Assembly: GCF_001747085.1 (NCBI RefSeq)
Contig: NZ_MDJD01000054.1
Coordinates: forward strand, 992,001-1,056,000
Length of the DNA stretch: 64,000 bases
Source: Flavivirga aquatica
Lineage (GTDB): Bacteria; Bacteroidota; Bacteroidia; Flavobacteriales; Flavobacteriaceae
Direction: 5' to 3'
Each line of letters starts with the position of its first letter. The stretch's first letter is position 1. This document shows positions 7,383 through 26,964 of the stretch, one piece after another. The notes below the pieces were generated by a model that did no database searches, was not told the DNA's origin, and saw only the letters and a list, made by a program, of their open reading frames with translations. Both the position numbers and the translations under genes were made by a program.

Positions 7383-8786
7383 GTGATTCACTTAAATTCA
7401 ATTAAAATCGAGTCCGAAATATTAGACATAAATCAATTGTATGACCATCTTGTTCTTACTAAAGAAGAAGGTATGGTAATCTATATCTTAGATTCAAGGA
7501 TTAAAGCAGGTAAAGTTTCTAAATACTTTACTTATCGTGATATTGAGAAGTGCATTAATGAAAGTGCTAAAATAGAAGTTGGCTCTATACCACAAACAGA
7601 AAAAATTGTTAGAAACTTACTTCATTTTTATATTGAAAGACCACCAAATGAAGAGTTGAAATTTGCGCTTACCAACTATGCGAAAAAATTTATCGATTTA
7701 ATCCATAAAAAACTTCATAGTCCACTTAAACATTTTCCACTTAAGAAAACGTTTCAGAAATATGCAGATTTTAAATCTTCGGAAATTGAAACTATAGCTG
7801 ATTTTGAATTATGGTACGATTTACAATTTCACAATAACAGTAAACAAACCATTATTGACCACCTTGAAGCTTTAAAGGATGTTGTCAATTCATCCATAAG
7901 CCGACTTAATGATTTATTGAAAAATGAATCAGAAGACCTTTTGACCATTACAAAAGAATTTACATTAATCTTTGATGAAATTGGGCTAAAGTCCGAGGAA
8001 ATAAAATATACTCTTCGTTTAGGAAACACTCTAAATATTGAAATTGAAAAAGTCGTTGATTTTTTCTATAAACAAATAGATGAGTTTAAGCATCCTGAAA
8101 ATAGTACTGAACGAGAAAAATTTGAAAAACTAAACGATGACTACAAAAAGGCTTTGCATATAAAAACAGAAGTAACTGATTTTTTCTATGATGTAGATTA
8201 TCGATTAAAGCAATTGATGGATAAGTCATTATATGCTAATAACCAATTAACAAATCTTCAAAATAGCTTTAGAAACCAATCAAGGATAAGAATAAATTTA
8301 AAGAAATTATTGAAATTCACATTAGAGCAAGCTTCGTATTCCAATAAACACATTATCACTTTACCTAAATCCTTTCCAATAAAATCAATACCTATTGAGA
8401 GATTTAAATTTATAGAAGTACCTTATTACCACACGTATGGAATTCAGAGAAACGAAATACTACCAGCTCATTACGACAATGAATATGCAAGGTCTGAAAG
8501 AGAAAAGGTAGAAAAAGACCTTTTTAGGCAAGAGAGTGCTGCAAAATTACTTAGAGAGTATAAAAGTATTCTCGAAGAGAAAAAAGAACTGAATTTCACA
8601 GAGCATTTCTATAAAATTCTAGAACGTGAAAATGATAGTGAAATAGCTTTAAGCGTTGGTTTTGACCTTTTCCAATTTGCAAACAGCAATCCCAGATATC
8701 AAATAGAAATTACAAAGGATTTGCCAGAGGCATATTCCGAACAAAAAATATTAGTATGGAACATGAAAATAAACCAAATTCTTTAG
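7383..8786 (+). CDS. jetA: Wadjet-like JetA (kleisin-type subunit)
   Basis: 467 residues, mostly helical, with long heptad-like stretches (about 150-300). No catalytic motif. I assign it by length (JetA proteins are ~450-500 aa) and by position as first gene of an unmistakable four-gene set: MukF-like, MukE-like, MukB/SMC-like, and Toprim nuclease. In Wadjet the JetA dimer bridges the SMC heads and carries JetB. The GTG start at 7383 is used because the next in-frame ATG is about 30 codons in. The 3' end overlaps jetB by 31 nt. This operon runs opposite to almost everything else in the element. Subtype cannot be set without profile searches. Confidence 0.75.
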   Translation: MIHLNSIKIESEILDINQLYDHLVLTKEEGMVIYILDSRIKAGKVSKYFTYRDIEKCINESAKIEVGSIPQTEKIVRNLLHFYIERPPNEELKFALTNYAKKFIDLIHKKLHSPLKHFPLKKTFQKYADFKSSEIETIADFELWYDLQFHNNSKQTIIDHLEALKDVVNSSISRLNDLLKNESEDLLTITKEFTLIFDEIGLKSEEIKYTLRLGNTLNIEIEKVVDFFYKQIDEFKHPENSTEREKFEKLNDDYKKALHIKTEVTDFFYDVDYRLKQLMDKSLYANNQLTNLQNSFRNQSRIRINLKKLLKFTLEQASYSNKHIITLPKSFPIKSIPIERFKFIEVPYYHTYGIQRNEILPAHYDNEYARSEREKVEKDLFRQESAAKLLREYKSILEEKKELNFTEHFYKILERENDSEIALSVGFDLFQFANSNPRYQIEITKDLPEAYSEQKILVWNMKINQIL

Positions 8787-9445
8787 AACATCCTTTTAAG
8801 TTTTTAGAAAATAATGATGTTAAAGAAAAATTTGCAAACCTTAACATAGAACTTTTAAGTGGCAGACACATTCAAAAGGACTCAAATTATTACCTCTACC
8901 AGTTACTAAAAAAATATTTTGAAGAACTAAAGTTCTACTATGCCAACTTCTATGGTTTAGAGTTAGAAAGAGACTATAAAGATGACATCACATTTTATTT
9001 TCTTGATTTTACAGAAGATTCAAAGGGTGCTTTAAGCTCAACGAGAAGACATAAAGAATTATCCAGCTTACAGACCGTAATGGGCATAATGCTATTAAAT
9101 ATGTATTATGACAGGTACTTTGAAAATATTAAGGAAATAACATTTCCAGATATTAAAAAGGAAATTTTATCTGGTGAAAACAGTAAGCATTTCAAAAAAT
9201 TATGGTTTAAAGAAATAAGAGATGAATATTCGCCCAACGAATGGAAGCGTGTGATTACCAATATTAAAAATACTATACGAGATTTTGAAAAATTAGGATG
9301 GGTAGAATCTATGGCTAAAGACGAGGGTGAAGACATCCACTTTAAGCTAAAAGAACCTATTTATCGTTTTCAAAAATTATATGAAAAAGAAATAACCCAC
9401 ATTGATGAATTTATAGAGAACTACTTATTACAGACAAATGATTAA
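8756..9445 (+). CDS. jetB: Wadjet-like JetB (MukE-like, DUF4194-type)
   Basis: 229 residues, the size of JetB/MukE proteins, which form winged-helix subunits clamping the kleisin. The second half shows the expected alternation of helices with a short beta hairpin (WKRVITNIKNTIRDFEKLGWVESM...IHFKLKEPIYRF). The start overlaps the end of jetA by 31 nt, and its stop overlaps the jetC start by 8 nt, implying translational coupling and fixed stoichiometry. The identity rests mainly on synteny and size; sequence similarity by eye is modest. Confidence 0.75.
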   Translation: MEHENKPNSLEHPFKFLENNDVKEKFANLNIELLSGRHIQKDSNYYLYQLLKKYFEELKFYYANFYGLELERDYKDDITFYFLDFTEDSKGALSSTRRHKELSSLQTVMGIMLLNMYYDRYFENIKEITFPDIKKEILSGENSKHFKKLWFKEIRDEYSPNEWKRVITNIKNTIRDFEKLGWVESMAKDEGEDIHFKLKEPIYRFQKLYEKEITHIDEFIENYLLQTND

Positions 9446-12400
9446 ATACCCACGAATATATTCTTTTTCTACAGTTGGAATCATAATGCATTTTAACCAA
9501 GATTATTTATTACACCCTATTAGGACAGATTTCACAGGAAAGAACGGAATAGGGAAATCACTTATTGCCGACCTTTTTCAAATTCTTTTTATCTCAGATA
9601 AGCAAAAAATAGCGTTTGGTACTGAAAGCTTCAAGAACAATACGCGATTACTTCACACACTTCCTTATAAAACTTCAGACGCTTATATTTTTATTAATAT
9701 TGAAGTAGAAAAAGATAGCTTTATCACTTTAGGCGTTAACATACCCAATAAAAAAAGCAGACCACTCAAATCATTTTGGATTCTTAATAAAGCTCATGGT
9801 ATAAATGATAATAATGAATTAAGTGATTTAAGCATTGCTAAAAACAACATACCATTTTTTAAAGATTTTATTCATGATAATAGTATCCCACCAATAGAGA
9901 AACTTGCCATTAAACTAAGGGATGAAAAACAAATATATCTTAGAAGCTTTTCAGATAAGAATCAAAAAAATGAACTTTACACTTTCCTATTTGAAAATAG
10001 AGTATTACCAATCGACCTTTCTATAGAATCAAATCTTGATGCTTTCGCAAAAGTCATACAGTCATTCTCGAAAGCAAAAACTCTAGACACGGATAGTGAC
10101 GATAGCTTAAAAAACTTTCTTTTTGAAGATAAAACAGATAGCCTTCAATCTGAATATGAAAAACATAAAACAGACCTAGAGAAACTAATTAATGATTACA
10201 AAGACCTTGAAGAATTAATTACCGACATTGAGAACAAACAAGAACGTCTTACTAATTTAAGTTCTTTAAACAGCCTCTATCTCAATTCATTTAAAGAACA
10301 TCTTTTAGTAGATTTTACATATACTGAAGACGAAATTTCAAAAAAGAATCAGTCATTAAAGGATATTAATACTCAAGTATTTGAAGAAAATAAACAGATT
10401 AAGTCATTACAAAAAAACAATCCAAAAATTCAAAAATCGGCTCAAAAAGCAAAAAAAGATTATGACAATCTTGATAAGACCATTAAACACCTAAAAGAAT
10501 ACAGCGAAATTTATAATAAAGTAGAAGCATTAAAATCTCAGATAAATGAATTAGAAAATATCAAGTTACCAGCAATTGAAAATGAGGCAATCGTCACTAT
10601 TGAAAATATCGAAGCTTACGAAATTGCTGAAATAAAACGTAGAATATCACATTTTACAAGTGTTTTTGAAAATTATGGTTCTCTTGAAAGCATCGAGCAA
10701 ACGATTGAATTACAAAAAGACGCACTTGATAACCGTAAGAGTTCACTTAAATCAAAAAAAGCGGACATTCGCGAATTACTGAATCTGCTTTCTAAAAACA
10801 AGAAAAATTCTCTATTTGCTCAACTTTTATCTCAACAAAAAACATTGACTGAAAGTCAAGAGGCCATCCTATTTGCAATTTTAAAAAATATTCATTGGAA
10901 GAAGCCAAAAGACGTAACTGCTGGTATTAAATATGTTGAAAGTTTAGAATTTATGAATGAAAAATTCATTGAAAATGATTCTGCAAATAATGGGTATTGG
11001 TTTAATTTGGGCGGTCTAAAAGAGTTTGTACCATCAACCAAAGAAAAACAGCTATTTAAAGATAAAGATAAACTTGAGAAAGCACTTTCAAATCAAACAA
11101 CAAAGCTGAACAACGAAATTAGTAGTATTGACAAAGAACTTTCACAGATTGAAGCTTTTATTAGAGGCGAAAAATTTGAACAAAAATCAATACACATTGA
11201 CCAAAAGTTAGACCAAAGGCTTAATGATTTTTCTAAGTTGAAAGATTTAAAACTGTCATTAGGATTGATTCAAAACCTGGAAGTTAAAAAACAGGGTTTA
11301 AACACTCAAATTTCTAAAGAAGAAAAAGAAATAAAAAAAGTCGAACTAAAAATTAGTGTTCCAATTGAAAAAAAGAACCTTTCTAATCAATTGGAAAAAC
11401 TTCAAGAAGAGTTAGAATCTATTGATAAAAATGAACGTGAATTAACTGCTCAATATAATACAGACAAAAGCAAATTGGAAGAAAAATTAAAGTTCTTACC
11501 TAGGCTTAAAAATCAACCGTCGGAATTAGAAAAATCCCTTACAGATTTAAATAATCAAAAGAATAAGATAGTTGCTGATTTTTCTTCATATTTTCCAGAT
11601 TTAGAAATCGAAAATATAGATAAAACTGAATACAAAAGCATTGAAAGAAATCCTTTATTTACAGAATTTCAATCAAATAAAACCAATTATATAGGCGACT
11701 ACAAAGCAATTATAAGTTCATTTGAACAAATAAAAAACGACCCAGAAATTAACGAACAAATTGCAAAAGGAACGTATAATTTTGAAATTCTTGAGCGTGT
11801 TCTTTTAGGACCTAAAATAAAACACTCAGCTAATATTTCAGAAGAACTCAAACAACTCAATAGCAGTAGATTTAGAATGTTTGGTGCCATACACGAAACA
11901 ATGCTCAGTATTTTTAAGCAAACCAAAGGAAAGTTTGATGAATACCACGAGACCATAAAAGCTTTAAATAAATTTTTTAAAGGAAAGAAAATTAGTGGTA
12001 AATATTATTTTCAATTGGAATTTAATCAGCCATCAGATTTTGATATTAACTGGATTAATGATTTACAAGCCACTTCCCAACAAGTGTATAGTGCAGGCGA
12101 ACTTCCTCTGGGTGAATCTGTAGAAAGTTTTGTCGAGAATTTTTTCATGAAAACAACAAGTTTTAATCAAAAAATTAAATTTTCCAATTTACTAGACCCG
12201 AAAACGTATTTTGAGTTAAGAACAAAATTCACGGATGAGTTTGACAATGAAAAAGCTGGTGGTAGCACAGGCGAAAGTTATGCAGCTATTGTACTGCTAG
12301 GAATTGGTAGATTATCAGTAGTTTTAAACGCAGATTTACCAGGACTTCGATTCCTTATTTTGGAAGAAGTTTCAAATTTAGACAACTTGAATTTTAGTAC

Positions 12401-12611
12401 TTTCCCAAATATTGCTGAAGAATTTGGCTATCAAATCCTTACAATGACACCACGACCATTCGGCTCAGATACCGAACAAGGTTGGTATTTACATCATTTA
12501 ATAGAGGGTGCTGGCGATAAAAATATTAATTACCCAATTCCAAATAGTTACTTTAAAACAAATGAAGGTAGACAAGATTTAGAAACCTATCTAAAAGCAC
12601 AATCAAATTAA
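9438..12611 (+). CDS. jetC: Wadjet-like JetC (SMC/MukB-type ATPase)
   Basis: 1057 residues. The Walker A GKNGIGKS is at 34-41. Two long coiled-coil arms (about 240-420 and 560-720) enclose a non-coil segment around 430-560 that would be the hinge. The ABC signature region is GGSTGES (from 941), and the Walker B LRFLILEEVSNLD follows near 970-982. Both nucleotide-binding halves are therefore present and look active. In Wadjet this subunit extrudes DNA loops and recognises small circular plasmids, which JetD then cuts. Length fits JetC; SbcC-type proteins have a zinc hook, which is absent here. jetD follows after 2 nt. Confidence 0.88.
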   Translation: MIKYPRIYSFSTVGIIMHFNQDYLLHPIRTDFTGKNGIGKSLIADLFQILFISDKQKIAFGTESFKNNTRLLHTLPYKTSDAYIFINIEVEKDSFITLGVNIPNKKSRPLKSFWILNKAHGINDNNELSDLSIAKNNIPFFKDFIHDNSIPPIEKLAIKLRDEKQIYLRSFSDKNQKNELYTFLFENRVLPIDLSIESNLDAFAKVIQSFSKAKTLDTDSDDSLKNFLFEDKTDSLQSEYEKHKTDLEKLINDYKDLEELITDIENKQERLTNLSSLNSLYLNSFKEHLLVDFTYTEDEISKKNQSLKDINTQVFEENKQIKSLQKNNPKIQKSAQKAKKDYDNLDKTIKHLKEYSEIYNKVEALKSQINELENIKLPAIENEAIVTIENIEAYEIAEIKRRISHFTSVFENYGSLESIEQTIELQKDALDNRKSSLKSKKADIRELLNLLSKNKKNSLFAQLLSQQKTLTESQEAILFAILKNIHWKKPKDVTAGIKYVESLEFMNEKFIENDSANNGYWFNLGGLKEFVPSTKEKQLFKDKDKLEKALSNQTTKLNNEISSIDKELSQIEAFIRGEKFEQKSIHIDQKLDQRLNDFSKLKDLKLSLGLIQNLEVKKQGLNTQISKEEKEIKKVELKISVPIEKKNLSNQLEKLQEELESIDKNERELTAQYNTDKSKLEEKLKFLPRLKNQPSELEKSLTDLNNQKNKIVADFSSYFPDLEIENIDKTEYKSIERNPLFTEFQSNKTNYIGDYKAIISSFEQIKNDPEINEQIAKGTYNFEILERVLLGPKIKHSANISEELKQLNSSRFRMFGAIHETMLSIFKQTKGKFDEYHETIKALNKFFKGKKISGKYYFQLEFNQPSDFDINWINDLQATSQQVYSAGELPLGESVESFVENFFMKTTSFNQKIKFSNLLDPKTYFELRTKFTDEFDNEKAGGSTGESYAAIVLLGIGRLSVVLNADLPGLRFLILEEVSNLDNLNFSTFPNIAEEFGYQILTMTPRPFGSDTEQGWYLHHLIEGAGDKNINYPIPNSYFKTNEGRQDLETYLKAQSN

Positions 12612-12613
12612 AA

Positions 12614-13534
12614 ATGAATTGGACTGTCCTTAAATCATTACACCAACTCTATATAGAGCGAAAGACTAAAATCAAACCTTCACTAACGGAAGATTCTTCC
12701 ATTCAATTATTGATATCAAATAAAGAAATCATTGAGGTAGGCAAATATTATCTTCCAGGAACACATTACGATTCATATTATACTAAACATCGTTTAAATC
12801 TATTCCCAATTTATTTTGACTTTTTAGAAGTTAATAACCTTTTAACCAAACGATTTGAAGAAGAGGATATAAAAACTCTAATTGAATTACAATCAAAAAA
12901 ACAAAATGATAATCTAATACCTACTAGAGAACAACTAATTGAAGCACAAGAAACCGTTAGAGGATTCTCAACAATGTTTTTTAAAAATGACAAATATTTA
13001 GATAATAAAGACTCGTTAATTAAAGCCATTAATCAAATACTTGATATTACACTTGTAGAGAACAAAGACCAACAGTATCTATACATACTTCAATGTGAAA
13101 AACCAGAATTAATTGTTCTTTGCGAAAATTTAGACTTTTTAAGAAAAGACAAAATGCCTCGTGAGAATAATTATGAACTTTGGTACGCAGGTGGAAAAAA
13201 TGTTCCCAAATTAAAATACGCAGATACGAGAGGACTTCCCATTTTTTATTCAGCGGATTGGGATGCAGATGGTTTAGAAATTTATGAGTTAGCCAAAGAA
13301 AAAATTCCGGAACTTCAACTTTTATTCCCAACGGCCATATCAAAAAGTATTGTTGATACTGAACATAGTAGTCATTGGAAAAATCAAGATAAACCAGAAG
13401 CACTTTCAAATTTAAGTTCTCATTTGTATTCAGAGAAGTACAAAGCAAAGATTAAAAAACTTATAGAGACGAATCATTGGATTATTGAGGAATCTAACGA
13501 CTTAAAAAAAATGATTCAAAACAGTTTCTCTTGA
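12614..13534 (+). CDS. jetD: Wadjet-like JetD (Toprim nuclease)
   Basis: 306 residues. The C-terminal half is a Toprim domain: strand ELIVLCEN with Glu171, then IFYSADWDADGLEIY with Asp215, Asp217 and Asp219, matching the acidic triad of topoisomerase-primase nucleases. In Wadjet, JetD cleaves plasmid DNA that the JetABC motor has looped. It is shorter than most JetD proteins (~380-400 aa), so the N-terminal arm is reduced, which may mark a divergent subtype. The 3' end overlaps by 19 nt the end of the convergent gene at 13516. Confidence 0.82.
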   Translation: MNWTVLKSLHQLYIERKTKIKPSLTEDSSIQLLISNKEIIEVGKYYLPGTHYDSYYTKHRLNLFPIYFDFLEVNNLLTKRFEEEDIKTLIELQSKKQNDNLIPTREQLIEAQETVRGFSTMFFKNDKYLDNKDSLIKAINQILDITLVENKDQQYLYILQCEKPELIVLCENLDFLRKDKMPRENNYELWYAGGKNVPKLKYADTRGLPIFYSADWDADGLEIYELAKEKIPELQLLFPTAISKSIVDTEHSSHWKNQDKPEALSNLSSHLYSEKYKAKIKKLIETNHWIIEESNDLKKMIQNSFS

Positions 13535-14498: not shown

Positions 14499-16295
14499 CT
14501 AATCGTTTAATTCCTGAATTTTCTTTTCAAGTTTCTCTATGCGCTCTTTCAAACGTGCTTCACGCTTGTTTCTCTCTTCTGCATATTCCTTTTCAATATT
14601 GGCAATTTTAGTTTTATAATACCCTTGCATCGCATTGTAGAATGAAATGTTCGTTAAGTTATTAACGTGATTGCTTTCGCCAAAATGTACTTGCTTGGTA
14701 AGGATATACCGAATCAACTTATAAAAGGTTTCCTTTTTGAAATTCTTTTTGAAGTTCTCGACAGTTTCCACATCAGTCTTTTTAGATGTGTTACCCAATA
14801 ATTTTGAAAAGTGTTTTTGCCGACCTACATAATCCACATTGTTTTCATATAGGGTTAATGAGAAAGCTACCATTTCATCTACCGAAAGTGATTTCTTATT
14901 TTCGATATAATCGGTTTGACGAATCATCTGAACTATGTCTTCAAATTGCTTGTTGTGCTCAATATGTCGCTTTCTGATTTCTCTTTCGTTGATTTTAACG
15001 ATTTGCTCTTCAGGCGAACACTCTGCCATTTTTCTATTTGCTAACGGTTCAGAGTATGTAGAATTTACAGTTTTTGAATCTTCTATTACCTTCACAAAGA
15101 TTGCTTTGTGAACATACGTTTTTGGATGAAACATAATACCTTTTACGAATCCATTTTCTTTTGCGGAATTATACACTTCCAATTCTTCCTTGTAATTATC
15201 AACCGCTTCTTCAAGTTCAGCTTTCAGCTCATCTTCAGAATAGTCGTAATGTTGGTATTCTGTCTTAATTGCTTCCATTGTAGGTTCAATAGGTTCCTCG
15301 ATTATTTCAACATCGTCCAGAAGATAGACTTTCAATCCATTTTTTTCCAATTGCGAAATAATGAGCTGGTTATTCTCGTCATCTGCCCAGTATTTGCGAA
15401 TTTCAGGAATCAACAGCATATTCTCTTTCTTCGATTTTTCTATCAGGTTCAAAAATGACTTGCTTTTCTTCGTTTCATAACAAGCTGATTTTGTACACAC
15501 CATTTTATCATCGCCGAATAAATTGCCTTGATTTGCTGCGTTGAACGGACATGTTGTACAGGCACCAGCTTTTGTTATTAATTTTTCATCGACCACATCG
15601 AAAGGTGCATTCTCCAAATCATAAGTCTGGTTTTTAATCATCTGATTAATTTGATGGGCATTAAAATCCTCTCCCATTGTTTCCAGCATCATTTGCTGTT
15701 CCTCTGGCTCGAAAAGCGCCACACCTACACCTAACGAAATCGTCATTTCGCCATTACGAACAAAGACTTTAAAACCTTCAATTAGACCTGCTAATTTTAA
15801 ACGTTGCCTTACAAAGTTTTCTGTTCTTCCTAACCGTTTTGAAATCTCCGTTGGCGCATATTTTTCGCTCAGGAATGCTACAGCTTCGGCTTCTTCAGTA
15901 GGTTCAACATCTTGTCTTTGCAGATTTTCGATAATTTGAATTTCCAGAACATCATTATTATCGAATGCTCTAACGATGCTCGGAATGGTTTTCTTTTTCG
16001 CCAATTTGCTTGCGCGATATCGACGTTCGCCCATGACGATGATGTAATCTTTTCCAGATTTTCGGACCGTAATAGGTTGTAGGACACCGTGTTCTTCGAT
16101 GCTTTCAGCCAGTTGTTTTAGAGCTTCCTCGTTAAAGGTTTTTCTTGGTTGCATTGGGTCAGGAATAATCCTTCCGATAGGTAGTTCTTGAACTTGAAGT
16201 CCAATGGCGCCTTGTGTCAATTTCTTCTTGACTTCATTTTTCATGGTGGCTGTTGCCTTTCCGTTTTTGCTTGTAGTACTTGCTTTTGTTGTCAT
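14499..16295 (-). CDS. ParB/RepB/Spo0J-family protein, large form with cysteine cluster
   Basis: 598 residues. The ParB nuclease-fold domain covers about 35-125, with the CTP-binding box GERRYRAS at 89-96 and ENLQRQDV at 123-130, then a helix-turn-helix (about 147-170: TEISKRLGRTENFVRQRLKLAG). A four-cysteine cluster near 245-275 (CTTCPFNAANQG...CTKSACYETK) may bind metal. The C-terminus is a coiled coil (ANIEKEYAEERNKREARLKERIEKLEKKIQEL). It is almost twice the length of chromosomal ParB, and no ParA is nearby, so partition is unproven; regulation or DNA binding on the element is equally possible. Confidence 0.85.
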   Translation of the reverse strand: MTTKASTTSKNGKATATMKNEVKKKLTQGAIGLQVQELPIGRIIPDPMQPRKTFNEEALKQLAESIEEHGVLQPITVRKSGKDYIIVMGERRYRASKLAKKKTIPSIVRAFDNNDVLEIQIIENLQRQDVEPTEEAEAVAFLSEKYAPTEISKRLGRTENFVRQRLKLAGLIEGFKVFVRNGEMTISLGVGVALFEPEEQQMMLETMGEDFNAHQINQMIKNQTYDLENAPFDVVDEKLITKAGACTTCPFNAANQGNLFGDDKMVCTKSACYETKKSKSFLNLIEKSKKENMLLIPEIRKYWADDENNQLIISQLEKNGLKVYLLDDVEIIEEPIEPTMEAIKTEYQHYDYSEDELKAELEEAVDNYKEELEVYNSAKENGFVKGIMFHPKTYVHKAIFVKVIEDSKTVNSTYSEPLANRKMAECSPEEQIVKINEREIRKRHIEHNKQFEDIVQMIRQTDYIENKKSLSVDEMVAFSLTLYENNVDYVGRQKHFSKLLGNTSKKTDVETVENFKKNFKKETFYKLIRYILTKQVHFGESNHVNNLTNISFYNAMQGYYKTKIANIEKEYAEERNKREARLKERIEKLEKKIQELND

Positions 16296-17693: not shown

Positions 17694-19658
17694 TTAATCA
17701 ACCCATTTCATGCGCTGTAATCTAACAGCATTCAATATTGCTAACAATGCAACACCAACATCTGCAAAAACCGCTTCCCACATAGTTGCTAAACCACCTG
17801 CACCTAATATTAGAACAATTACTTTTACACCGAATGCTAATATGATATTTTGCCATACAATTTTGCGAGTGGAACGACTAATTTTAATAGCCCTAACTAC
17901 TTTTGAAGGTTGGTCTGTTTGAATAATAACATCTGCGGTTTCTATTGCGACATCACTTCCCAATCCACCCATTGCAATTCCTACATCACTTGCTGCTAAA
18001 ACTGGTGCATCATTAATGCCATCGCCTATAAAAGCAATCTTATTATTAGGGTTTTGTTTTAAAATTTCAACTTCATTTAGCTTATCTTCTGGTAACAAAC
18101 CGCCTTTAGCGATTTCGATATTTAACTCGGAAGCTACTTTTTGAGTAATGGAATCCTTATCGCCAGAGAGCATCATTATATTTTTGACACCTACTTTATG
18201 TAATGCTGTAATCGTTTCTTTTGCATCCTCTTTTAATTCATCTGCAATAACCACATAGCCTGCAAATGTATTGTCTATAGATACCAAAACAATCGATTCT
18301 ACAATAGTTTCTGTTTCTTCTAAAACATTAATATTATTGGCTGTCATTAGGGCTTTGTTACCAACTAAAACAGTCTTACCGTTTACGATACCTTTTAGGC
18401 CTTTACCTGCTATTTCAGATACTTCTGAAGCTTCATAATCTGTACCTTCATCTTTATATTCTAAAATGGCTTTTGCGATTGGATGTGTGGATTGTTCTTC
18501 CATCGCCATCAGGTATTTCATAAACTCTTTCTCATCCCAATTGATAGCTTCAATCTTTTTAATTTTAAAGACGCCTTTCGTAACCGTCCCTGTCTTATCC
18601 ATTACCAATGTATTTATCTTGGTCATGGCATCTAAAAATGAAGCGCCTTTAAACAAAATTCCGTTTTTTGAAGCTGCTCCCAATCCCCCGAAATAACCCA
18701 ACGGAATGGATATAACCAAAGCACAAGGACAAGAAATTACCAAGAAAATTAAGGCTCTGTATAACCAATCTCTAAACACATAATCATCTACAAAAAAGTA
18801 TGGTAAAAATGTAACTGCAATAGCTAGAAACACAACTATTGGCGTATAAATTCGAGCAAATTGTCTAATGAATAATTCTGTTTTCGATTTACGAGCTGTT
18901 GCATTCTGCACCATATCGAGGATACGTGCAATGGAACTATCCTTAAATTCTTTGGTGGTTTCTATTTCAATAACTCCATCCATATTAATACTTCCTGCAA
19001 ATACTTTTTCGCCTTTTGCAATCGTATCAGGTTTGCTTTCGCCTGTCAATGCCGCTGTATTAAATGAGCCTTTTTCGGAAAGCAGAATACCATCTAAAGG
19101 GATTTTTTCTCCAACACGGACTTGAACTTTTTCTCCAATTTCAACCGTTTCTGGGCTTACAGAAATGTAATCATTATTGCGATATACCAAAGCTTCATTA
19201 GGACGAACATCGAGCAAAGCTTTAATATTACCCTTTGCTTTATTTACTGCTGCACTCTGAAATAATTCTCCAACCGCATAGAATAACATTACTGCTACTC
19301 CTTCAGGGTATTCGCCAATCACGAATGCACCTATGGTTGCTATAGACATTAAGAAAAACTCTGTAAAAACATCTCCTTTTTTAATGCTTTTCCACCCTTC
19401 CTTTATAACAGGAAAACCTACGGGAATATATGCCATAACATACCAAAGTATGCGAATCCATCCTTTAAAATATGGGAACATATCGAAATAGTCGATTGCA
19501 ATACCAATCATTAACATTACAAAACTGAAAATTGCCGGCAAATAAATATTAAACTTCCCTATGTTCTCTGAACTACTATGATTGTGACCATCGTTTTGAT
19601 TGTGATCTATTTCAGAATTTGGTTTTATATCTCGTAAATTGACTTTCTTTTTTTTCAT
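17694..19658 (-). CDS. ZntA/CadA-type heavy-metal P-type ATPase
   Basis: 654 residues, an inner-membrane exporter of divalent soft metals (Zn/Cd/Pb/Co class). The TGES actuator loop is at 205-208, the CPC metal site at 310-312, and the phosphorylation loop DKTGT at 354-358. The last membrane segments hold KVIVLILGAGG and FADVGVALL; a Lys and an Asp there are typical of the Zn class. The usual N-terminal HMA domain is missing; instead there is a short His-rich lead (HNQNDGHNHSS). It is the last gene of the merTP operon, behind a strong terminator. Confidence 0.9.
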   Translation of the reverse strand: MKKKKVNLRDIKPNSEIDHNQNDGHNHSSSENIGKFNIYLPAIFSFVMLMIGIAIDYFDMFPYFKGWIRILWYVMAYIPVGFPVIKEGWKSIKKGDVFTEFFLMSIATIGAFVIGEYPEGVAVMLFYAVGELFQSAAVNKAKGNIKALLDVRPNEALVYRNNDYISVSPETVEIGEKVQVRVGEKIPLDGILLSEKGSFNTAALTGESKPDTIAKGEKVFAGSINMDGVIEIETTKEFKDSSIARILDMVQNATARKSKTELFIRQFARIYTPIVVFLAIAVTFLPYFFVDDYVFRDWLYRALIFLVISCPCALVISIPLGYFGGLGAASKNGILFKGASFLDAMTKINTLVMDKTGTVTKGVFKIKKIEAINWDEKEFMKYLMAMEEQSTHPIAKAILEYKDEGTDYEASEVSEIAGKGLKGIVNGKTVLVGNKALMTANNINVLEETETIVESIVLVSIDNTFAGYVVIADELKEDAKETITALHKVGVKNIMMLSGDKDSITQKVASELNIEIAKGGLLPEDKLNEVEILKQNPNNKIAFIGDGINDAPVLAASDVGIAMGGLGSDVAIETADVIIQTDQPSKVVRAIKISRSTRKIVWQNIILAFGVKVIVLILGAGGLATMWEAVFADVGVALLAILNAVRLQRMKWVD

Positions 19659-19688: not shown

Positions 19689-19898
19689 TTAGCAGCAGCA
19701 GTTTTTTCCTTTTTGAATTGGCGGACATGGAACCGTTCCAAAAGAACAATACACACAACAATCTCCTTCATTCGGTTTCAAAACCGTTTTACATTTCTCG
19801 CATTCGTAGAAAAACTGACAAGCGTTTGTTGGCATCTCTTCAACCTTTTTATGTTTGCAATTTGGACAAGTAATTTCTGATTTTAATATGACTTCCAT
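19689..19898 (-). CDS. GDCCVxC-motif cysteine-rich protein
   Basis: 69 residues, 13 of them cysteines. The motif GDCCVYC is at 45-51, preceded by CPNC (11-14) and CEKC and followed by a terminal CCC. This defines the GDCCVxC family, small soluble metal-binding proteins found beside mercury or heavy-metal transporters. It probably binds or passes metal between MerTP and the ATPase. The stop of merTP and the start here overlap by 1 nt. Confidence 0.85.
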   Translation of the reverse strand: MEVILKSEITCPNCKHKKVEEMPTNACQFFYECEKCKTVLKPNEGDCCVYCSFGTVPCPPIQKGKNCCC

Positions 19899-20494
19899 TA
19901 ATTCTGTTTTTTGTTAATTACTTTATAACCTGTTGCGTTAATTGCAATTTCAACTTCAGTTTCATTGGTTTTAGTTCTGTCGAACTCAACAACTGCATTT
20001 CCATTTTCGTAGGACGCTTTTGAGCTTAGAATTCCATTAAGTTTATTTACTTCGTGATTTACATGCTCTTCACAACTCGTACAAGTCATTCCGCTAATTT
20101 GAAATTTAGTTGTTTTAATGTCCGATTTGTCAACTACGACTATTTGCTTCTCTGTATTTGAGTAAAAAAATTTTGAATAAAATGGAAAAGCCAACATCAC
20201 AATTGCAAAAACAGTTACTATTCCTAAAAACGCTTTTGACTGTATAAATTTCGAGTTTTCTTCAGTATCACATTCGCAGTCAATTTTCTTTTGAGGTCTT
20301 AGTTTTTGATACCAAGCAAAACCAAGAATTAAAATTGTTAACCCTATTAGATAAGGTCTAAAAGGTTCTATCCAAGAAAACATTGAAGCAATCCCGCTTG
20401 TACCTGCAATCATTGCTAAAAAAGGTGTTATACAACACAATGAAGCTGCGATTGCTGAAATTAAACTCGTCCCTATTAATTTACTTTTCATCAT
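19898..20494 (-). CDS. merTP: MerTP fusion: MerT-type transporter with C-terminal HMA domain
   Basis: 198 residues. The MerT part has the paired cysteines Cys20-Cys21 in the first membrane helix and further helices to about 115, with CEC (73-75) in the loop. The MerP-like HMA domain follows, with GMTCTSC (Cys138, Cys141). MerT/MerP move Hg(II) inward in mer operons, but no merA or merR is present, so another soft metal is as likely. The promoter carries operator site A. The GDCCVxC and ZntA-type genes follow in the same operon. Confidence 0.82.
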   Translation of the reverse strand: MMKSKLIGTSLISAIAASLCCITPFLAMIAGTSGIASMFSWIEPFRPYLIGLTILILGFAWYQKLRPQKKIDCECDTEENSKFIQSKAFLGIVTVFAIVMLAFPFYSKFFYSNTEKQIVVVDKSDIKTTKFQISGMTCTSCEEHVNHEVNKLNGILSSKASYENGNAVVEFDRTKTNETEVEIAINATGYKVINKKQN

Positions 20495-20512: not shown

Positions 20513-20520
20513 CAAAGATG
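20513..20520 (-). promoter_or_regulatory. Probable -7 box of the merTP promoter
   Basis: CATCTTTG on the minus strand resembles the Bacteroidota -7 element TAnnTTTG. It lies 18 nt upstream of the merTP ATG, with the operator dyad just upstream. It differs from consensus only at the first base. Confidence 0.5.
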
Positions 20521-20531
20521 AGTTAAAATAC

Positions 20532-20550
20532 AATGCAACGGAAGTGCATT
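20532..20550. promoter_or_regulatory. Candidate Fur-family operator, site A
   Basis: AATGCAACGGAAGTGCATT, an imperfect dyad (AATGCA...TGCATT) located upstream of the merTP -7 box. It shares 14 of 19 positions with the site at 26946-26964 and sits at the same distance from the -7 box, give or take 1 bp. Confidence 0.65.
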
Positions 20551-20966
20551 TATAATCCACTACATTTATCACAAACACCTTTTACAACCAAGTTTATGTC
20601 TTCGGAAATAAAGCCATTTGGCACTTTTATTTGTGGAATTTTATGCTCGGTAAGACAAACCGTTTCGTTGCAGTTATTACAATGAAAATGTAAGTGTAAA
20701 TCGGTTTCAATATCACAGTTACAGCCTTTTTCACAAAGCGCATATTTAGTAATGCCTGTGCCATCATCTATTTGATGTACAATCGTACTTTCTTCAAATG
20801 TTTTTACTGTTCTATACAATGTAGTTCTATCTGCTTTATCAAAAGCATTTTCGATATCACTTAATGTTACTGCTACTTGTTTCTCAGCAAGAAATTTATA
20901 AATTAATAAACGCATTGCCGTAACACGTATATTTTTTGACTCTAATAATTGTTCTATGGTTTGCAT
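20550..20966 (-). CDS. Fur-family metalloregulator
   Basis: 138 residues. The N-terminal winged helix has the usual RVTAMRLLIYKFL and ADRTTLYRTVKTFEES recognition region. The metal-binding half has LHLHFHC (His91, 93, 95) and two CxxC pairs (Cys96/99 and Cys132/135) that would form the structural zinc site. It is the last gene of the czcA-czcB operon, 2 nt after czcB, so it should be made together with the pump it likely represses. The sensed metal (zinc is the simplest guess) cannot be read from sequence. Confidence 0.85.
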   Translation of the reverse strand: MQTIEQLLESKNIRVTAMRLLIYKFLAEKQVAVTLSDIENAFDKADRTTLYRTVKTFEESTIVHQIDDGTGITKYALCEKGCNCDIETDLHLHFHCNNCNETVCLTEHKIPQIKVPNGFISEDINLVVKGVCDKCSGL

Positions 20967-20968
20967 AA

Positions 20969-22174
20969 TTAATGTTCGTGTTCTGCTTCTCCTTTTTTCA
21001 TTTCAGCAATTAAATAATACGCATTATTATAAGCGAATTTTGTGGCTTTATCTTGTTCTTCAGCAAATTTAACCGCTATCCAATTACCATCTTTTTCTCC
21101 TAAAAGCACTTCAACTGGCTTAAAACTCCAATCGTCATTTTCTTTTTCTACTGAAAAGACATAAAATCTATCGCCTTCTTTTATAATTGCGCTTTCTGGC
21201 AATGCATGAGTTTCTGCGTTCTCAACTTGAATTTTACCTTTAATATACATTCCTGGAATTAGATTCCCTTTTTTGTTTTCAATTTCAGCATGGACGTGTA
21301 GTGCTTTAGGATTATCTTCAAAAGTTTTGCTTACCGAATAGATTTCTGCTGTAAGATCTTCGTCTGTATTAGATTGTAAATTGAAAATCACTTTTTGACC
21401 TTTCTTTACTTTATAAACGTCTTTTTCGAACACCATTAAATCTGCATGAACGTGATGCGTGTTTACGATTTCAAAAAGTTCGGTTTGCGGTTCTACATAT
21501 TGTCCTGTTTTTACTTCAACTTTTTGGACAAAGCCTTCTATTGGACTACGTAATGATATACTTTGAGCAATGGTTCCATTTCGTACTGATGACGTGTTTA
21601 TGTTTAATAGTCTCAATTGAGCTTCCAATCCATTTACCATAGCTTTAGAGGCATCATATTCTGCTTCGGCTTTTTGAAAACTTGCACCAGAGCCAACTCC
21701 TGCATCATATAATTTTTGCTGACGTTCATAGTTCTTCTTTAAAAAATTACTGTTGCTAAAAGCATTTAAATAATCGGTCTGCATTTTTATAATATTAGGA
21801 TGAGATAAATATGCAACCACTTGACCTTTATTAACTTTATCGCCTTCAATAACTTTTATTGATACCACATTTGCACCAACTACAGAAGTTATTGCTGCTT
21901 CGTTTTGTGGTGGTACTTCTAATGTGCCATTGGCTTCTACATAACCGCTCATATTACGCAATGCTAGGGTGTCTGTTTTCATTTTTAAGGCATCAAACTG
22001 TTGTTGTGATAGCATCACTTCTTCTTCATCACTATGAGCTTCTTCGGCTTCTGGCTTTACATCTTCATTGTGTGCATGACCATCGCCTTCTTTATGGCTT
22101 TCTTTATTTCCACAGGCAACTACTAAAAGTGAAACTGTTAGTAATGTTAAGATTATATATCGTGTGTTTTTCAT
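20969..22174 (-). CDS. czcB: CzcB-type periplasmic adaptor lipoprotein
   Basis: 401 residues. A lipobox (LLVVAC) ends the signal peptide near residue 21, then comes a His/Asp/Glu-rich stretch (HKEGDGHAHNED...EEAHSDEEE) that may bind metal. Barrel-sandwich, helical hairpin and beta-barrel parts follow (VEANGTLEVPPQNEAAITS; SPIEGFVQKVEVKTGQYV). The C-terminus GEAEHEH is again His-rich. It links the inner-membrane CzcA to the outer-membrane channel. The gene is 4 nt after the czcA stop. Confidence 0.88.
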   Translation of the reverse strand: MKNTRYIILTLLTVSLLVVACGNKESHKEGDGHAHNEDVKPEAEEAHSDEEEVMLSQQQFDALKMKTDTLALRNMSGYVEANGTLEVPPQNEAAITSVVGANVVSIKVIEGDKVNKGQVVAYLSHPNIIKMQTDYLNAFSNSNFLKKNYERQQKLYDAGVGSGASFQKAEAEYDASKAMVNGLEAQLRLLNINTSSVRNGTIAQSISLRSPIEGFVQKVEVKTGQYVEPQTELFEIVNTHHVHADLMVFEKDVYKVKKGQKVIFNLQSNTDEDLTAEIYSVSKTFEDNPKALHVHAEIENKKGNLIPGMYIKGKIQVENAETHALPESAIIKEGDRFYVFSVEKENDDWSFKPVEVLLGEKDGNWIAVKFAEEQDKATKFAYNNAYYLIAEMKKGEAEHEH

Positions 22175-22178
22175 TTTC

Positions 22179-25100
22179 TTATTTATTAAAATATTGTAGT
22201 TGAAATGTGCTTTCTAAATAATTTATTAATGCTTCTTGAGCTTGTAATTCAGATTGAATAGCTTCTTTTATGAGTTGTGTAAACCCTGTATAATCTATCT
22301 CTCCTTCTTTATAGGCAAATAAAGCCCCCAATTTTTGTTCTTTCACAAGTGGTAACACCTCATTTTTATAGAAAAACCAAGACGTTTTCCATTTTTGATA
22401 ATTCTCTTTTGATTGTACAAACTTGGATTGTACTTCTTGTTTTTTGAACTGAATGTTCGTATCAGCAATTTCCTTATCGATTTTTGCGGTTTTAACCTTT
22501 GCTTTATTTGTACCAGACAAAAAAGGAATGGAAACACCTGCTTGATAGGTATAAAACCCTGAATTACCATTTAAGTTTTGTAAACCACCTTGAAAATTTA
22601 ACTTGGGTAAATTATCTGCTTTGGCAGCTTTATATGTGGCTTCTGCTTCTGTTACCTGTAATTGTGCTATACCATATAAGGGATGTTCTTCTAAGTTAAA
22701 AGTATCAACATCAATTTCACTAGTGATTTCAAAATCATTGGGAACGGTATAGAATGTATCAGAAACCAACCATAGGTTTAACTGTTGTAATGCAATACTA
22801 TATTCACTTTTTGATTGCATAAATTTATTTTGAATCTGTAAAGCTTGATTTTTAGCTGCTGAATATTCTAACCTTGAAATCGCTTCTACTTCATAATTTA
22901 ATGCTACTGCTTTTTCAAAATTGGTATAAATTGAATCTAACTCTCTGTATAAATTATAATTCCTTTTACTCTGCAAGGCATTTGCCCAGGCTTTTTTCAC
23001 TTCCAATTCTAAATCTAATTCTGAAAGTTGAAACGCTTTTTGAGCTAGTTGAATGCGTTGTTCTTGCAATCGTTTTTTTGCAGAAATACCAAACACATCA
23101 ATGTTGCTTTGACCAATTCCTATAGTTGTATAAATACCATTTCTGTTATTAATTTCCTCGCCTCCAGTAAAAATTTGAGTCGTTCCAAAATCATAAGCTG
23201 TACTTTTTAACTGCTCTTGTTTGCTGATTTCTAATTGCTTTTGTTTTAAAAGTGGAAAATTTTCTTTTGATAATTTAACCGCTTCATTCATCGAAATGAT
23301 TGGCAACGTATCGTTAACTTCTTGGGCGTTTCCTGTTATTGGTAACAAAAACATAAAAGCTACCATAGCAGTAACTGTAATCACTTTTTTGTCTGCTCTA
23401 AACTTGAATGATTTGTTTTCTACCCAATGATATAATATAGGTAAAACGAACAATGTTAATAGTGTAGATGTTAATAAACCACCAATTACAACCGTTGCTA
23501 AAGGCCGTTGTACTTCTGCACCAGCTGATGCCGAAATTGCCATAGGTAAAAAGCCTAAAACATCTGTAAAAGCGGTTAGCATAATTGGTCTAATTCTTCG
23601 TTTTGTTCCCTCTATAATTCTATCTTTAAGATTGGTAACACCTTCATCTTTCAACTCATTCAAATCACTAATCATTACTAATCCATTTAAAACCGCAACA
23701 CCAAATAAAACGATAAAACCGACTCCTGCCGAAATACTAAATGGCATATCTCGTAACCACAACGCTACGACACCACCAATGGTTGCCATAGGAATTGCGA
23801 TATAAATCATTAAGGTTTGTGGCAATGATTTTAAAGCAAAATAAATAAGTACAAAAATGAGCAATAACGCAATTGGTACAACTGTTTGCAGTCTATTACT
23901 AGCACGTTCTAAATTTTCAAAAGCACCACCATAACGAATAAAATAACCTGATGGCAACTCTAGTTTAGCATCTAACTTGGATTTTATTTCTGTTACCAAT
24001 GATTTTACATCACGTCCCCTTACATTAATACCAACATAGGTTCTTCTGTTTGTATTATCCCTACTTATTTGCATTGGACCGGCTTTGTAGCTTATATCTG
24101 CAACTTCCCGAAGTGGAATTTGAGTACCAGACGGTAAGTTGATGTACAAATTTTGAACATCTGAAATATCCTTTCGATTTTGGGAATTTAATCTTACTAC
24201 TAAATCGAATCGTTTTTCGCCTTCAAAAATAATTCCTGCTGTACCACCTGCAAAAGCCGATTGCACAATTTGATTTAAGGTGTTTATTTGCAGTCCGTAT
24301 TGGGCTAATTTATTTCTATTGTAAGTAATAGTCATTTGTGGCAACCCTGTTGTGGCTTCGGCTTTCATATCTCCAATACCTTCAGTTCCTGCAATGATTT
24401 TGGATATTTCTTCTGCTTTTTGAGACAGGACATTTATATCTTCTCCATAAAGTTTTATGGCAATGTCTTCTCTAACACCTTCCAGCAATTCATTAAAACG
24501 CATTTCGATAGGTTGTGTAAATTCATAGTTAACACCTGGAACCATTTCTACCGCTTCTTTCATCTTCTCTATTAATTCATCTTTTGTAGTGGCTGTTGTC
24601 CATTCGCTTTTTGGTTTTAAAATCACAAAAACATCGGCTAAATCCATTGGCATTGGGTCTGTTGGGATTTCTGCAACACCAATTCGACTTACAATTTTTT
24701 CGACTTCTGGAAACTTTGCTTTTACAATTTGTTCAATTTTTGTGGTCGTTTCAATCGTTTCTGTAAGCGAGCTTCCAGGTTTTAAAATGGCGTGAAATGC
24801 AATATCTCCTTCATCGAGTTGTGGGATGAATTCGCCTCCCATTCGACTAAACATAAAAACTGTTAGTCCGAATAGCACGACTGCAATGCCTATAATCCAT
24901 TTTCCTTTTTGTATCGCTTTAACTAATAAAGGTTGGTATTTTTCTTCTACCCAATGCACAAATTTATCGCCATAAGATTCTTTGTCTGACTTTGGTGCTC
25001 TTAAAACCAAGGCAGACATCATTGGCACATACGTCAAACAAAGTACCATTGCACCAATCATTGCAAAAATGAAAGTCAATGCCATCGGTTTGAACATTTT

Positions 25101-26513
25101 TCCTTCAATCCCTTCTAATGCCAAAATAGGCAGAAAGACAATTAGAATAATTAGCTGACCAAAAAAGGCTGCATTCATCATTTTTTTTGAAGCATTAGAA
25201 GCCACTTTATCTCTTTCTTTTGCAGTAAGTTTCTTCTTTTTTAGCACTTGTGATGCAATAAGAAAAACGGTACTTTCTACTATAATTACTGCACCATCGA
25301 CAATAATACCGAAATCTATTGCTCCTAAGCTCATTAAATTAGCCCAAACATCAAACACATTCATAAGGATAAATGCAAACAACAACGATAACGGAATAGT
25401 GGATGCCACTATTAAACCACCTCTCCAATTTCCTAATAAAAAGATGAGTACAAATATTACTATTAATGCACCTTCAATAAGGTTTGTTGCTACAGTTGAT
25501 GTAGTTTCTGCTATTAACTTACTTCGGTCTAATAAAGGTTCAATAATCACACCTTCTGGTAATGACTTTTCTATTAGAGCCATGCGTTCTTTTACATTCT
25601 CGATAACATCGTTTGAGTTTGCGCCTTTAAGCATCATTACCAAACCACCTACAACTTCTCCTTCTCCATCTTGTGTTAATGCGCCATAACGAATAGCAGA
25701 CCCAAATTGTACTTTGGCAATGTCGCCAATAGTTATAGGAATATTATTGGTGTTTTTTACTGTGATTTTTTTAATATCATCCAAACTACGCACTAAGCCT
25801 TCGCCACGAATAAAATTAGCTTGATGATTTTTTTCAATATATGCACCACCTGTATTTTGATTATTGTTTTCCAACGCTTCAAAGATATCGGTAATTGTTA
25901 ATCCGATTGCTCGCAACTCATTTGGATCAACAGCGACTTCATATTGCTTAATTTTTCCGCCAATAGCATTAACTTCAACAACACCTTCTACCATTGCCAT
26001 TTGACGTTGTACAATCCAATCTTGCATGGTGCGCAAATCAGTAACTGAATATTTCTCTTTGTATTCTGGTTTGACTTTAAGTGTGTATTGATATATTTCT
26101 CCTAGACCAGATGAAATAGGACCCATTGAAGGTTCTCCAAATCCCTCGGGAATTTGTTCTTTGATGTCGTTGAGTTTTTCAGCGACTAATTGACGTGGCA
26201 GATACGTTCCCATATCATCGTCAAAAACAATGGTAACAACTGATAAGCCAAAACGAGAAATTGAACGAATTTCTTGGACATTAGGTAGATTGCTCATTGC
26301 TACCTCTACTGGATAGGTTATGATTTGCTCAATATCCTCTGTTCCTAAATTTGGTGCTTGCGTAATGACTTGTACTTGGTTGTTGGTAATATCTGGTACC
26401 GCATCTATAGGTACTTGAGTCATACTCCAAATACCAGCTCCAACAATGGTAAGCGTTAGCAAACCAATAATGAATTTGTTATTGATTGAAAAATCAATGA
26501 TTTTATTAATCAT
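22179..26513 (-). CDS. czcA: CzcA-type RND pump fused to a TolC-like outer-membrane factor
   Basis: 1444 residues. About 1-1040 form a complete heavy-metal RND transporter; the fourth membrane helix carries the divalent-metal proton relay Asp400, Asp406 and Glu413 (AIDFGIIVDGAVIIVE). The remaining ~400 residues form a TolC-like outer-membrane factor (MNEAVKLSKENFPLLKQKQ...). The junction near 1045-1075 reads like a signal peptide (KKVITVTAMVAFMFLLPITGNAQ). This fusion type is known in Bacteroidota. With CzcB it would export Zn/Co/Cd-like ions across the envelope; it explains why no separate czcC is present. Confidence 0.92.
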   Translation of the reverse strand: MINKIIDFSINNKFIIGLLTLTIVGAGIWSMTQVPIDAVPDITNNQVQVITQAPNLGTEDIEQIITYPVEVAMSNLPNVQEIRSISRFGLSVVTIVFDDDMGTYLPRQLVAEKLNDIKEQIPEGFGEPSMGPISSGLGEIYQYTLKVKPEYKEKYSVTDLRTMQDWIVQRQMAMVEGVVEVNAIGGKIKQYEVAVDPNELRAIGLTITDIFEALENNNQNTGGAYIEKNHQANFIRGEGLVRSLDDIKKITVKNTNNIPITIGDIAKVQFGSAIRYGALTQDGEGEVVGGLVMMLKGANSNDVIENVKERMALIEKSLPEGVIIEPLLDRSKLIAETTSTVATNLIEGALIVIFVLIFLLGNWRGGLIVASTIPLSLLFAFILMNVFDVWANLMSLGAIDFGIIVDGAVIIVESTVFLIASQVLKKKKLTAKERDKVASNASKKMMNAAFFGQLIILIVFLPILALEGIEGKMFKPMALTFIFAMIGAMVLCLTYVPMMSALVLRAPKSDKESYGDKFVHWVEEKYQPLLVKAIQKGKWIIGIAVVLFGLTVFMFSRMGGEFIPQLDEGDIAFHAILKPGSSLTETIETTTKIEQIVKAKFPEVEKIVSRIGVAEIPTDPMPMDLADVFVILKPKSEWTTATTKDELIEKMKEAVEMVPGVNYEFTQPIEMRFNELLEGVREDIAIKLYGEDINVLSQKAEEISKIIAGTEGIGDMKAEATTGLPQMTITYNRNKLAQYGLQINTLNQIVQSAFAGGTAGIIFEGEKRFDLVVRLNSQNRKDISDVQNLYINLPSGTQIPLREVADISYKAGPMQISRDNTNRRTYVGINVRGRDVKSLVTEIKSKLDAKLELPSGYFIRYGGAFENLERASNRLQTVVPIALLLIFVLIYFALKSLPQTLMIYIAIPMATIGGVVALWLRDMPFSISAGVGFIVLFGVAVLNGLVMISDLNELKDEGVTNLKDRIIEGTKRRIRPIMLTAFTDVLGFLPMAISASAGAEVQRPLATVVIGGLLTSTLLTLFVLPILYHWVENKSFKFRADKKVITVTAMVAFMFLLPITGNAQEVNDTLPIISMNEAVKLSKENFPLLKQKQLEISKQEQLKSTAYDFGTTQIFTGGEEINNRNGIYTTIGIGQSNIDVFGISAKKRLQEQRIQLAQKAFQLSELDLELEVKKAWANALQSKRNYNLYRELDSIYTNFEKAVALNYEVEAISRLEYSAAKNQALQIQNKFMQSKSEYSIALQQLNLWLVSDTFYTVPNDFEITSEIDVDTFNLEEHPLYGIAQLQVTEAEATYKAAKADNLPKLNFQGGLQNLNGNSGFYTYQAGVSIPFLSGTNKAKVKTAKIDKEIADTNIQFKKQEVQSKFVQSKENYQKWKTSWFFYKNEVLPLVKEQKLGALFAYKEGEIDYTGFTQLIKEAIQSELQAQEALINYLESTFQLQYFNK

Positions 26514-26610
26514 AGAATTATAGTTATAATGAATTTATAAATAAAGAATAGTTACCAAAGAGTATCGATGGTAGCATAGATTTATAATACACCTGCGAAG
26601 CAGGTGCTCA

Positions 26611-26922
26611 TTACACTTGTGGTGGTTGTAAAACGGAATTCGTGAAGTCTTTTTCTGAACCGCTTAGGTATAAAACATCTTTTGTGGAAATAAAAGATAA
26701 TTCTAATTTTAAATCCGGTATATCAAAATGCACAGCACTTACATGGCAGCATTGACAAATACAAAAAGGCGAACATAAATCTGAATCTTGATGTTGATGG
26801 TCATTGTCCATTCCTTGTGAAATTTCTGTTTGAACCTCATTATCAAGCGTAACATTATCTTCGCAGGGTGCTAAATTAAGCGCGAAAATATAAATTGATA
26901 ATATAAAAGCTAAAAATTTCAT
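26611..26922 (-). CDS. DUF6660-like small secreted His/Cys protein
   Basis: 103 residues. A signal peptide (MKFLAFILSIYIFALNLAPC) is followed by a metal-ligand-rich stretch: DNDHQHQDSD then CSPFCICQCCHV. I read it as DUF6660-like, a small family next to czcA genes in flavobacteria. It is probably a periplasmic metal-binding or sensor protein. It is the first gene of the operator-B operon; the -7 box lies only 6 nt upstream of the ATG, so the mRNA may be leaderless or nearly so. Confidence 0.7.
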   Translation of the reverse strand: MKFLAFILSIYIFALNLAPCEDNVTLDNEVQTEISQGMDNDHQHQDSDLCSPFCICQCCHVSAVHFDIPDLKLELSFISTKDVLYLSGSEKDFTNSVLQPPQV

Positions 26923-26927
26923 CGTAG

Positions 26928-26935
26928 CAAAGATA
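26928..26935 (-). promoter_or_regulatory. -7 box of the czcA operon promoter
   Basis: TATCTTTG on the minus strand, a full match to TAnnTTTG, 5 nt before the start codon at 26922. Operator site B lies just upstream. Confidence 0.6.
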
Positions 26936-26945
26936 TAAATTATTT

Positions 26946-26964
26946 AATGCAATGGTATTGCAAA
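26946..26964. promoter_or_regulatory. Candidate Fur-family operator, site B
   Basis: AATGCAATGGTATTGCAAA contains the perfect dyad TGCAAT-GGT-ATTGCA. It sits at the same distance from a -7 box as site A does at merTP and would control the operon that ends with the Fur-family gene itself. Confidence 0.65.

Follow-up and report, generated by a model that had tools for sequence, protein, structure and literature searches.

The Fur-family protein encoded by the last gene of a czcA operon (20550-20966) very probably recognises two copies of a TGCA-N7-TGCA operator, one located 5' of its own operon and the other 5' of the adjoining merTP-GDCCVxC-zntA operon, since this operator is linked to the regulator gene across genomes, merTP loci and plasmids. 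Recognition of both sites by this protein had been put forward in the first-pass annotation of this DNA, and comparative genomics now gives it strong support. Control of both operons by one protein is probable, and they are most likely held off until there is an excess of metal.

Two adjoining metal export operons carry a common operator

The window, by which we mean the whole stretch of 64,000 nucleotides that was analysed, comes from a marine flavobacterium and contains two adjoining operons, both on the minus strand. Operon A is arranged in the order DUF6660, CzcA/TolC-like fusion, adaptor and Fur-family regulator, while operon B is formed of merTP, GDCCVxC and a zntA-like ATPase. Their genes and promoter elements are as follows.

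26948-26962, minus strand: operator A core TGCAATACCATTGCA, within the first-pass 19-mer at 26946-26964, 5' of the czcA operon with the regulator gene; kept in relatives
26928-26935, minus strand: TATCTTTG, the -7 box of the czcA operon, separated by 12 bp from the operator A core and by 5 nt from the start codon of DUF6660
26611-26922, minus strand: DUF6660 small protein, operon A gene 1 (Pfam DUF6660, 67.3 bits)
22179-26513, minus strand: fusion of a CzcA/CusA RND pump with a TolC-like outer-membrane domain (Pfam ACR_tran and OEP; TIGR00914, 1220 bits)
20969-22174, minus strand: RND periplasmic adaptor, or membrane fusion protein (TIGR01730, 144 bits)
20550-20966, minus strand: Fur-family regulator of 138 aa, final gene of operon A (Pfam FUR, 41.3 bits, cut-off 23.1)
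20534-20548, minus strand: operator B core TGCACTTCCGTTGCA, within the first-pass 19-mer at 20532-20550, 5' of merTP-GDCCVxC-zntA; kept in relatives
20513-20520, minus strand: CATCTTTG, the putative -7 box of the merTP promoter, separated by 13 bp from the operator B core
19898-20494, minus strand: MerTP fusion, operon B gene 1 (NF033556, 298.7 bits, cut-off 180)
19689-19898, minus strand: GDCCVxC domain protein (NF041374, 104 bits, cut-off 40)
17694-19658, minus strand: ZntA/CadA-like heavy-metal P-type ATPase (TIGR01525 and TIGR01512, both over cut-off)

The RND pump and TolC-like domain are encoded by a single ORF of 1444 aa (22179-26513), and this fusion is kept in relatives. The block from DUF6660 to zntA shows 99-100% protein identity to records from Hyunsoonleella, Winogradskyella and Psychroserpens (L009, L010, L011), indicating a recent transfer between genera.

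Read in the direction of transcription, promoter A is TGCAATACCATTGCA-N12-TATCTTTG and promoter B is TGCACTTCCGTTGCA-N13-CATCTTTG. The first-pass annotation had described two 19-mers with 14/19 bases in common at equal distances, within 1 bp, from their -7 boxes, and we confirmed the positions of both 19-mers, the shared bases and the distances (13 bp and 12 bp). Its wording needs one correction: the conserved core is TGCA-N7-TGCA and not a classical AT-rich Fur box. The consensus in transcriptional orientation is wTTGCAmynCCATTGCAtt, with a core of 15 bases, and at operator B the 19-mer is abutted by the regulator stop codon.

In F. johnsoniae the -7 element spans -12 to -5, with the transcription start 4-5 nt later and a -33 motif that is barely visible (PMC6847099). 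Applying this start-site rule would place the operator cores at about -39 to -25, provided that transcription here also starts 4-5 nt past the -7 box. When local promoter-like sequences were searched for a -33 TTG at a fixed distance, the excess seen at 19-20 bp was weak, and we give it no weight. In the czcA operon 5 nt lie between the -7 box and the DUF6660 start codon (26922-26935), and its mRNA is therefore predicted to be leaderless. A spacing of 4-5 nt from -7 box to start codon was found in 26/36 non-redundant A-type promoters, and leaders exceed 10 nt at 87% of probable F. johnsoniae promoters (PMC6847099).

The operator pair is a non-random pattern

We compared dinucleotide-shuffled versions of both intergenic regions and found a best ungapped 19-mer match of at least 14 in 66/150 trials (44%). 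The pairwise identity of 14/19 was therefore dropped as evidence by itself, and this figure is what favours a chance similarity between two AT-rich intergenic stretches. The genome was then covered by pattern searches, as the first-pass annotation had proposed, and WRTGCANNGGNANTGCAWW gave two matches in 4.64 Mb, which are precisely these two sites, while its reversed control gave none. Likewise, the operator combined with a -7 box at a spacing of 8-16 bp gave three matches, two of which are these sites. Because WRTGCANNGGNANTGCAWW is unique to the two sites in this genome, and because the arrangement is kept in dozens of relatives with diverged flanks, the pair, taken as a sequence pattern, is not due to chance. 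Coincidence is a practically negligible explanation, as the TGCA arms stay constant while the flanks diverge, the comparative results are all contrary, and conservation across genera and classes already contradicts it. Further dyads within the locus at two mismatches lay for the most part in the conserved coding regions of the regulator and zntA, and were set aside.

Operator and spacing are conserved while the flanks diverge

Our locus sample was formed of 80 loci from genome contigs with 87-100% identical regulators, and 39 loci from family genomes with 46-78% identical regulators. TGCA-N7-TGCA was present within the 70 bp spanning the regulator stop codon in 106/119 loci, against an expectation of 0.0018 per 70-bp window at the background rate. 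Separated by regulator identity, the site was present in 78/80 loci of the close group, 17/27 at 60-80% identity and 11/12 below 60%, leaving 10/27 loci at 60-80% identity with no site directly 3' of the regulator.

For promoters 5' of the regulator operon we chose 36 with flanks at most 70% identical, and in these all eight TGCA bases reached 2.00 bits per position while the flanks averaged 0.37; in 20 non-redundant promoters 3' of the regulator the arms again reached 2.00 bits, with 0.50 for the flanks. The 2.00 bits of the arms arise partly by construction, as the regular expression demanded TGCA, and the independent points are the site frequency and the divergence of the flanks. With 10-15 bp allowed, the spacing from operator to -7 box was 12 bp in 33/36 A promoters and 13 bp in the others, and it was 13 bp in 16/20 B promoters and 12 bp in the others. 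Among close relatives, many B sites show a weaker box resembling TAnnTTTA in place of the -7 box.

The operator accompanies the regulator gene and not its targets

Across 299 family genomes, the operator module was present in 104/127 with a regulator homologue and in 19/172 without (homologue limit E up to about 1e-37; Fisher p 2e-37, with lists compiled by hand and genomes that are non-independent). We also compared 30 merTP loci, where the operator was found in 11/11 adjoining the regulator and in 0/19 detached from it. This control was scored on the operator alone, as an earlier version that demanded a strict -7 box gave 2/11 and missed real sites. Most of the 19 detached merTP loci sit under an ArsR-type gene; in relatives this is the arrangement of the detached merTP-GDCCVxC cassettes (L190-L204, L211, L212, L217).

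In two loci (L013, L028) ~3 kb has been inserted 3' of the regulator and the site remains with the downstream genes, which marks it as part of a promoter rather than a side effect of the regulator 3' end. The operator is also kept where the target has been swapped for a TonB receptor (L034 type) or for a TonB receptor together with a CDF-like transporter (L178 type). In L034 (5442-8417), and in loci like it, DUF6660 and the regulator flank a TonB-dependent receptor instead of the CzcA pump, with the same operator. Furthermore, on plasmids from Cytophagia and Bacteroidia with 42-57% identical regulators (Pontibacter, Bernardetia, Adhaeribacter, Flammeovirga, Hymenobacter, Bacteroides and Phocaeicola), the operator was found in 8/8 loci examined, either beside the regulator or 5' of a neighbouring czcA/zntA operon, with a -7 box at the right distance in 6/8. 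At the level of sequence, the identity of the operator, its position and its linkage to the regulator gene are thus direct observations, and it is strongly supported that the operator accompanies the regulator gene, rather than the target, through rearrangements and target exchange and across the phylum.

The same data bear on whether these operators, while real, might be bound in vivo mainly by a second Fur-family protein, or shared between the two. The regulator has a paralogue on another contig (G000:C34), which is 32% identical and is transcribed divergently from a MerC-like gene; the region separating these two genes holds two TGCA-type dyads (L002, about 1870-1950), and cross-talk is possible. 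The presence of such dyads at the paralogue's own promoter suggests that TGCA half-sites are typical of a wider regulator subfamily, and it is also the point in favour of binding by the paralogue. However, the operators are physically tied to the gene of the window regulator across classes, and merTP copies detached from that gene have no operator, which makes main or shared binding by the paralogue very improbable.

The regulator belongs to the Fur superfamily and has a candidate Cys/His sensory site

A first structure prediction using 16 close homologues gave a pLDDT of 48.6 and was discarded, while a second, using 48 diverse homologues, gave 88.7. The best fold matches of this model are to the Fur family: Fur, Zur and PerR each align over 120-130 residues at Z 12-13, and the modelled fold has a winged helix and a dimerisation domain. 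Together with the match to the FUR profile, this identifies the regulator as a member of the Fur superfamily, although these similar Z values do not tell the three kinds of protein apart.

Across the 48 homologues (27-95% identity), C96, C99, C132 and C135 are invariant and match a Cys4 structural zinc site of the form CxxC...CxxC. In the same set H64, H91, H93 and C104 are invariant, and C78 is at least 90% conserved. In alignments, C104 corresponds to the metal ligand D104 of PerR from B. subtilis. In a comparison with the N2OS type of sensory site, H64, C78, H91 and H93 line up with the ligands D62, C76, H81 and H83 of Zur from M. tuberculosis. Because these conserved residues align with the PerR and Zur positions, the regulator is likely to have a sensory site rich in Cys and His that would suit Zn, Cd or Hg.

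The protein scores far below all three curated models that we compared. Like the Zur proteins of E. coli and M. tuberculosis, it has a Fur fold, a Cys4 structural site (by sequence) and aligning Cys/His candidate sensory residues, but it scored 29.4 bits against the 167 of the curated E. coli-type Zur model, has exporters rather than uptake systems as targets, and carries an invariant Cys104. Of the proteins with solved structures, PerR matches it best in sequence (2fe3, E 3e-5), with H91/H93 and the Cys4 site aligning; however, the regulator has Cys at the D104 position and scored 30.2 bits against 180 on the curated PerR model. Likewise, it scored 28.6 bits against the 220 of the curated Bacillus-type iron-Fur model. 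A zinc-uptake regulon was not found either, as the sole two sites in the genome precede the czcA and merTP-zntA export operons.

Repression relieved by excess metal is the favoured mechanism

As a whole mechanism, we regard as moderately probable a two-operon regulon in which repression is relieved by an excess of a Zn/Cd/Hg-type metal. A dimer of the regulator would bind TGCA-N7-TGCA at about -39 to -25, 12-13 bp 5' of the sigma-ABfr -7 box, and would cover DNA needed by RNA polymerase, and when toxic metal is low both DUF6660-CzcA/TolC-adaptor-regulator and merTP-GDCCVxC-zntA would be repressed. As a divalent metal of the thiol-seeking kind, such as Zn, Cd or Hg, accumulates, it would fill the Cys/His site (candidates H64, C78, H91, H93 and C104), upon which the metal-loaded regulator would leave the DNA, in the manner of ArsR or apo-Zur, and both export operons would be made, with negative autoregulation. 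Physical binding, repression, release by metal and the choice of metal are what we infer here. Repression, which the first-pass annotation had inferred for both operons, is plausible from position and is the simplest reading, because a dimer bound at about -39 to -25 would hinder the polymerase, and as the targets are exporters this repression would have to be lifted by excess metal.

Most Fur-family proteins bind DNA when metal-loaded, which is contrary to what exporters need. A metal-corepressed Fur would close the exporters in excess metal, so that if this regulator represses, its allostery must differ from that of canonical Fur/Zur. Such reversed logic is not without precedent, because C. 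glutamicum Zur, with its sensory sites unfilled, represses two exporters from a site overlapping the -35 element (PMC6103462). As proposed for our window, the zra/zrf system joins a Fur-family protein to metal exporters through a site overlapping the upstream promoter element, with Zur repressing at low metal (PMC6103462). Unlike that general zinc-uptake regulator, which uses a 10-1-10 direct repeat, the system described here has an inverted TGCA-N7-TGCA site and a regulator gene inside the export operon.

Further findings count against the favoured mechanism, one of which is the 60-80% identity group described above, with its 10/27 loci without a site directly 3' of the regulator. Another is the fixed spacing from operator to -7 box, which would equally suit an activator. 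The main alternative is accordingly a metal-dependent activator, in which the same regulator would bind the same operators only when metal-loaded and recruit polymerase, with positive autoregulation. This would retain the canonical logic of metal promoting DNA binding, would fit the exporter targets and the strict spacing, and has parallels in X. campestris and S. coelicolor, where Zur activates exporters (PMC6103462). At S. coelicolor zitB, however, the Zur box lies 5' of the -35 element with no overlap of the polymerase site (PMC6103462), while here the core lies at about -39 to -25, and we consider activation rather unlikely.

A further such finding is that some relatives have a TonB-dependent receptor under the operator, which fits a canonical uptake repressor. 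A Zur-like corepressor would repress in its metal-loaded form, with the operons made in metal starvation or for zinc balancing, and the Zur-like alignment of H64, C78, H91 and H93 agrees with this. Its difficulty lies with the CzcA pump and ZntA-like ATPase, the targets in the window and in most relatives, which would be off in metal excess, and we judge canonical corepression improbable.

Extending the favoured mechanism, in which metal relieves repression, we suggest more tentatively, and with considerable doubt, that a Bacteroidota-wide Fur subfamily serves as a dedicated excess-metal sensor of export operons, replacing MerR/ArsR regulators on mobile resistance islands. Its allostery would be reversed via the invariant Cys at the PerR D104 position, with the apo form binding TGCA-N7-TGCA and a thiol-seeking metal releasing the regulator. 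Like the MerR/ArsR regulators of mer/znt/czc operons, this protein is linked to merTP, zntA or czcA, with a presumed response to excess toxic metal, but it belongs to another protein family, and the detached merTP copies of relatives lie under an ArsR-type gene without the operator.

Significance and genomic surroundings

The Fur family is best known for starvation sensors, which close uptake when metal is plentiful. Fur-family control of exporters is also known, and in the literature searched we found no report of the TGCA-N7-TGCA operator or of this Bacteroidota subfamily, nor anything specific on the regulator or GDCCVxC, although subscription journals were mostly outside the search and a published description may exist. 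The interest of the system lies in a Fur subfamily that has an operator of its own and a candidate sensory site containing Cys, and that is tied to toxic-metal exporters across Bacteroidota. If the reading is true, the operator could be used for scans of any Bacteroidota genome, and the system would provide a test case for the reversal of metalloregulator allostery. Proteobacterial promoters fail in Bacteroidota, and the regulator and promoter would be a pair for metal biosensors in this phylum.

The regulator-exporter loci are often on plasmids or conjugative islands. Elsewhere in the window, a four-gene cassette at 7383-13534 on the plus strand encodes MksE-like, JetC-like and JetD3-like proteins by weak matches, resembling a Wadjet/MksBEF-like system. 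Genes for ParB (14499-16295) and a conjugative coupling protein (2223-3818) lie nearby, together suggesting a conjugative element.
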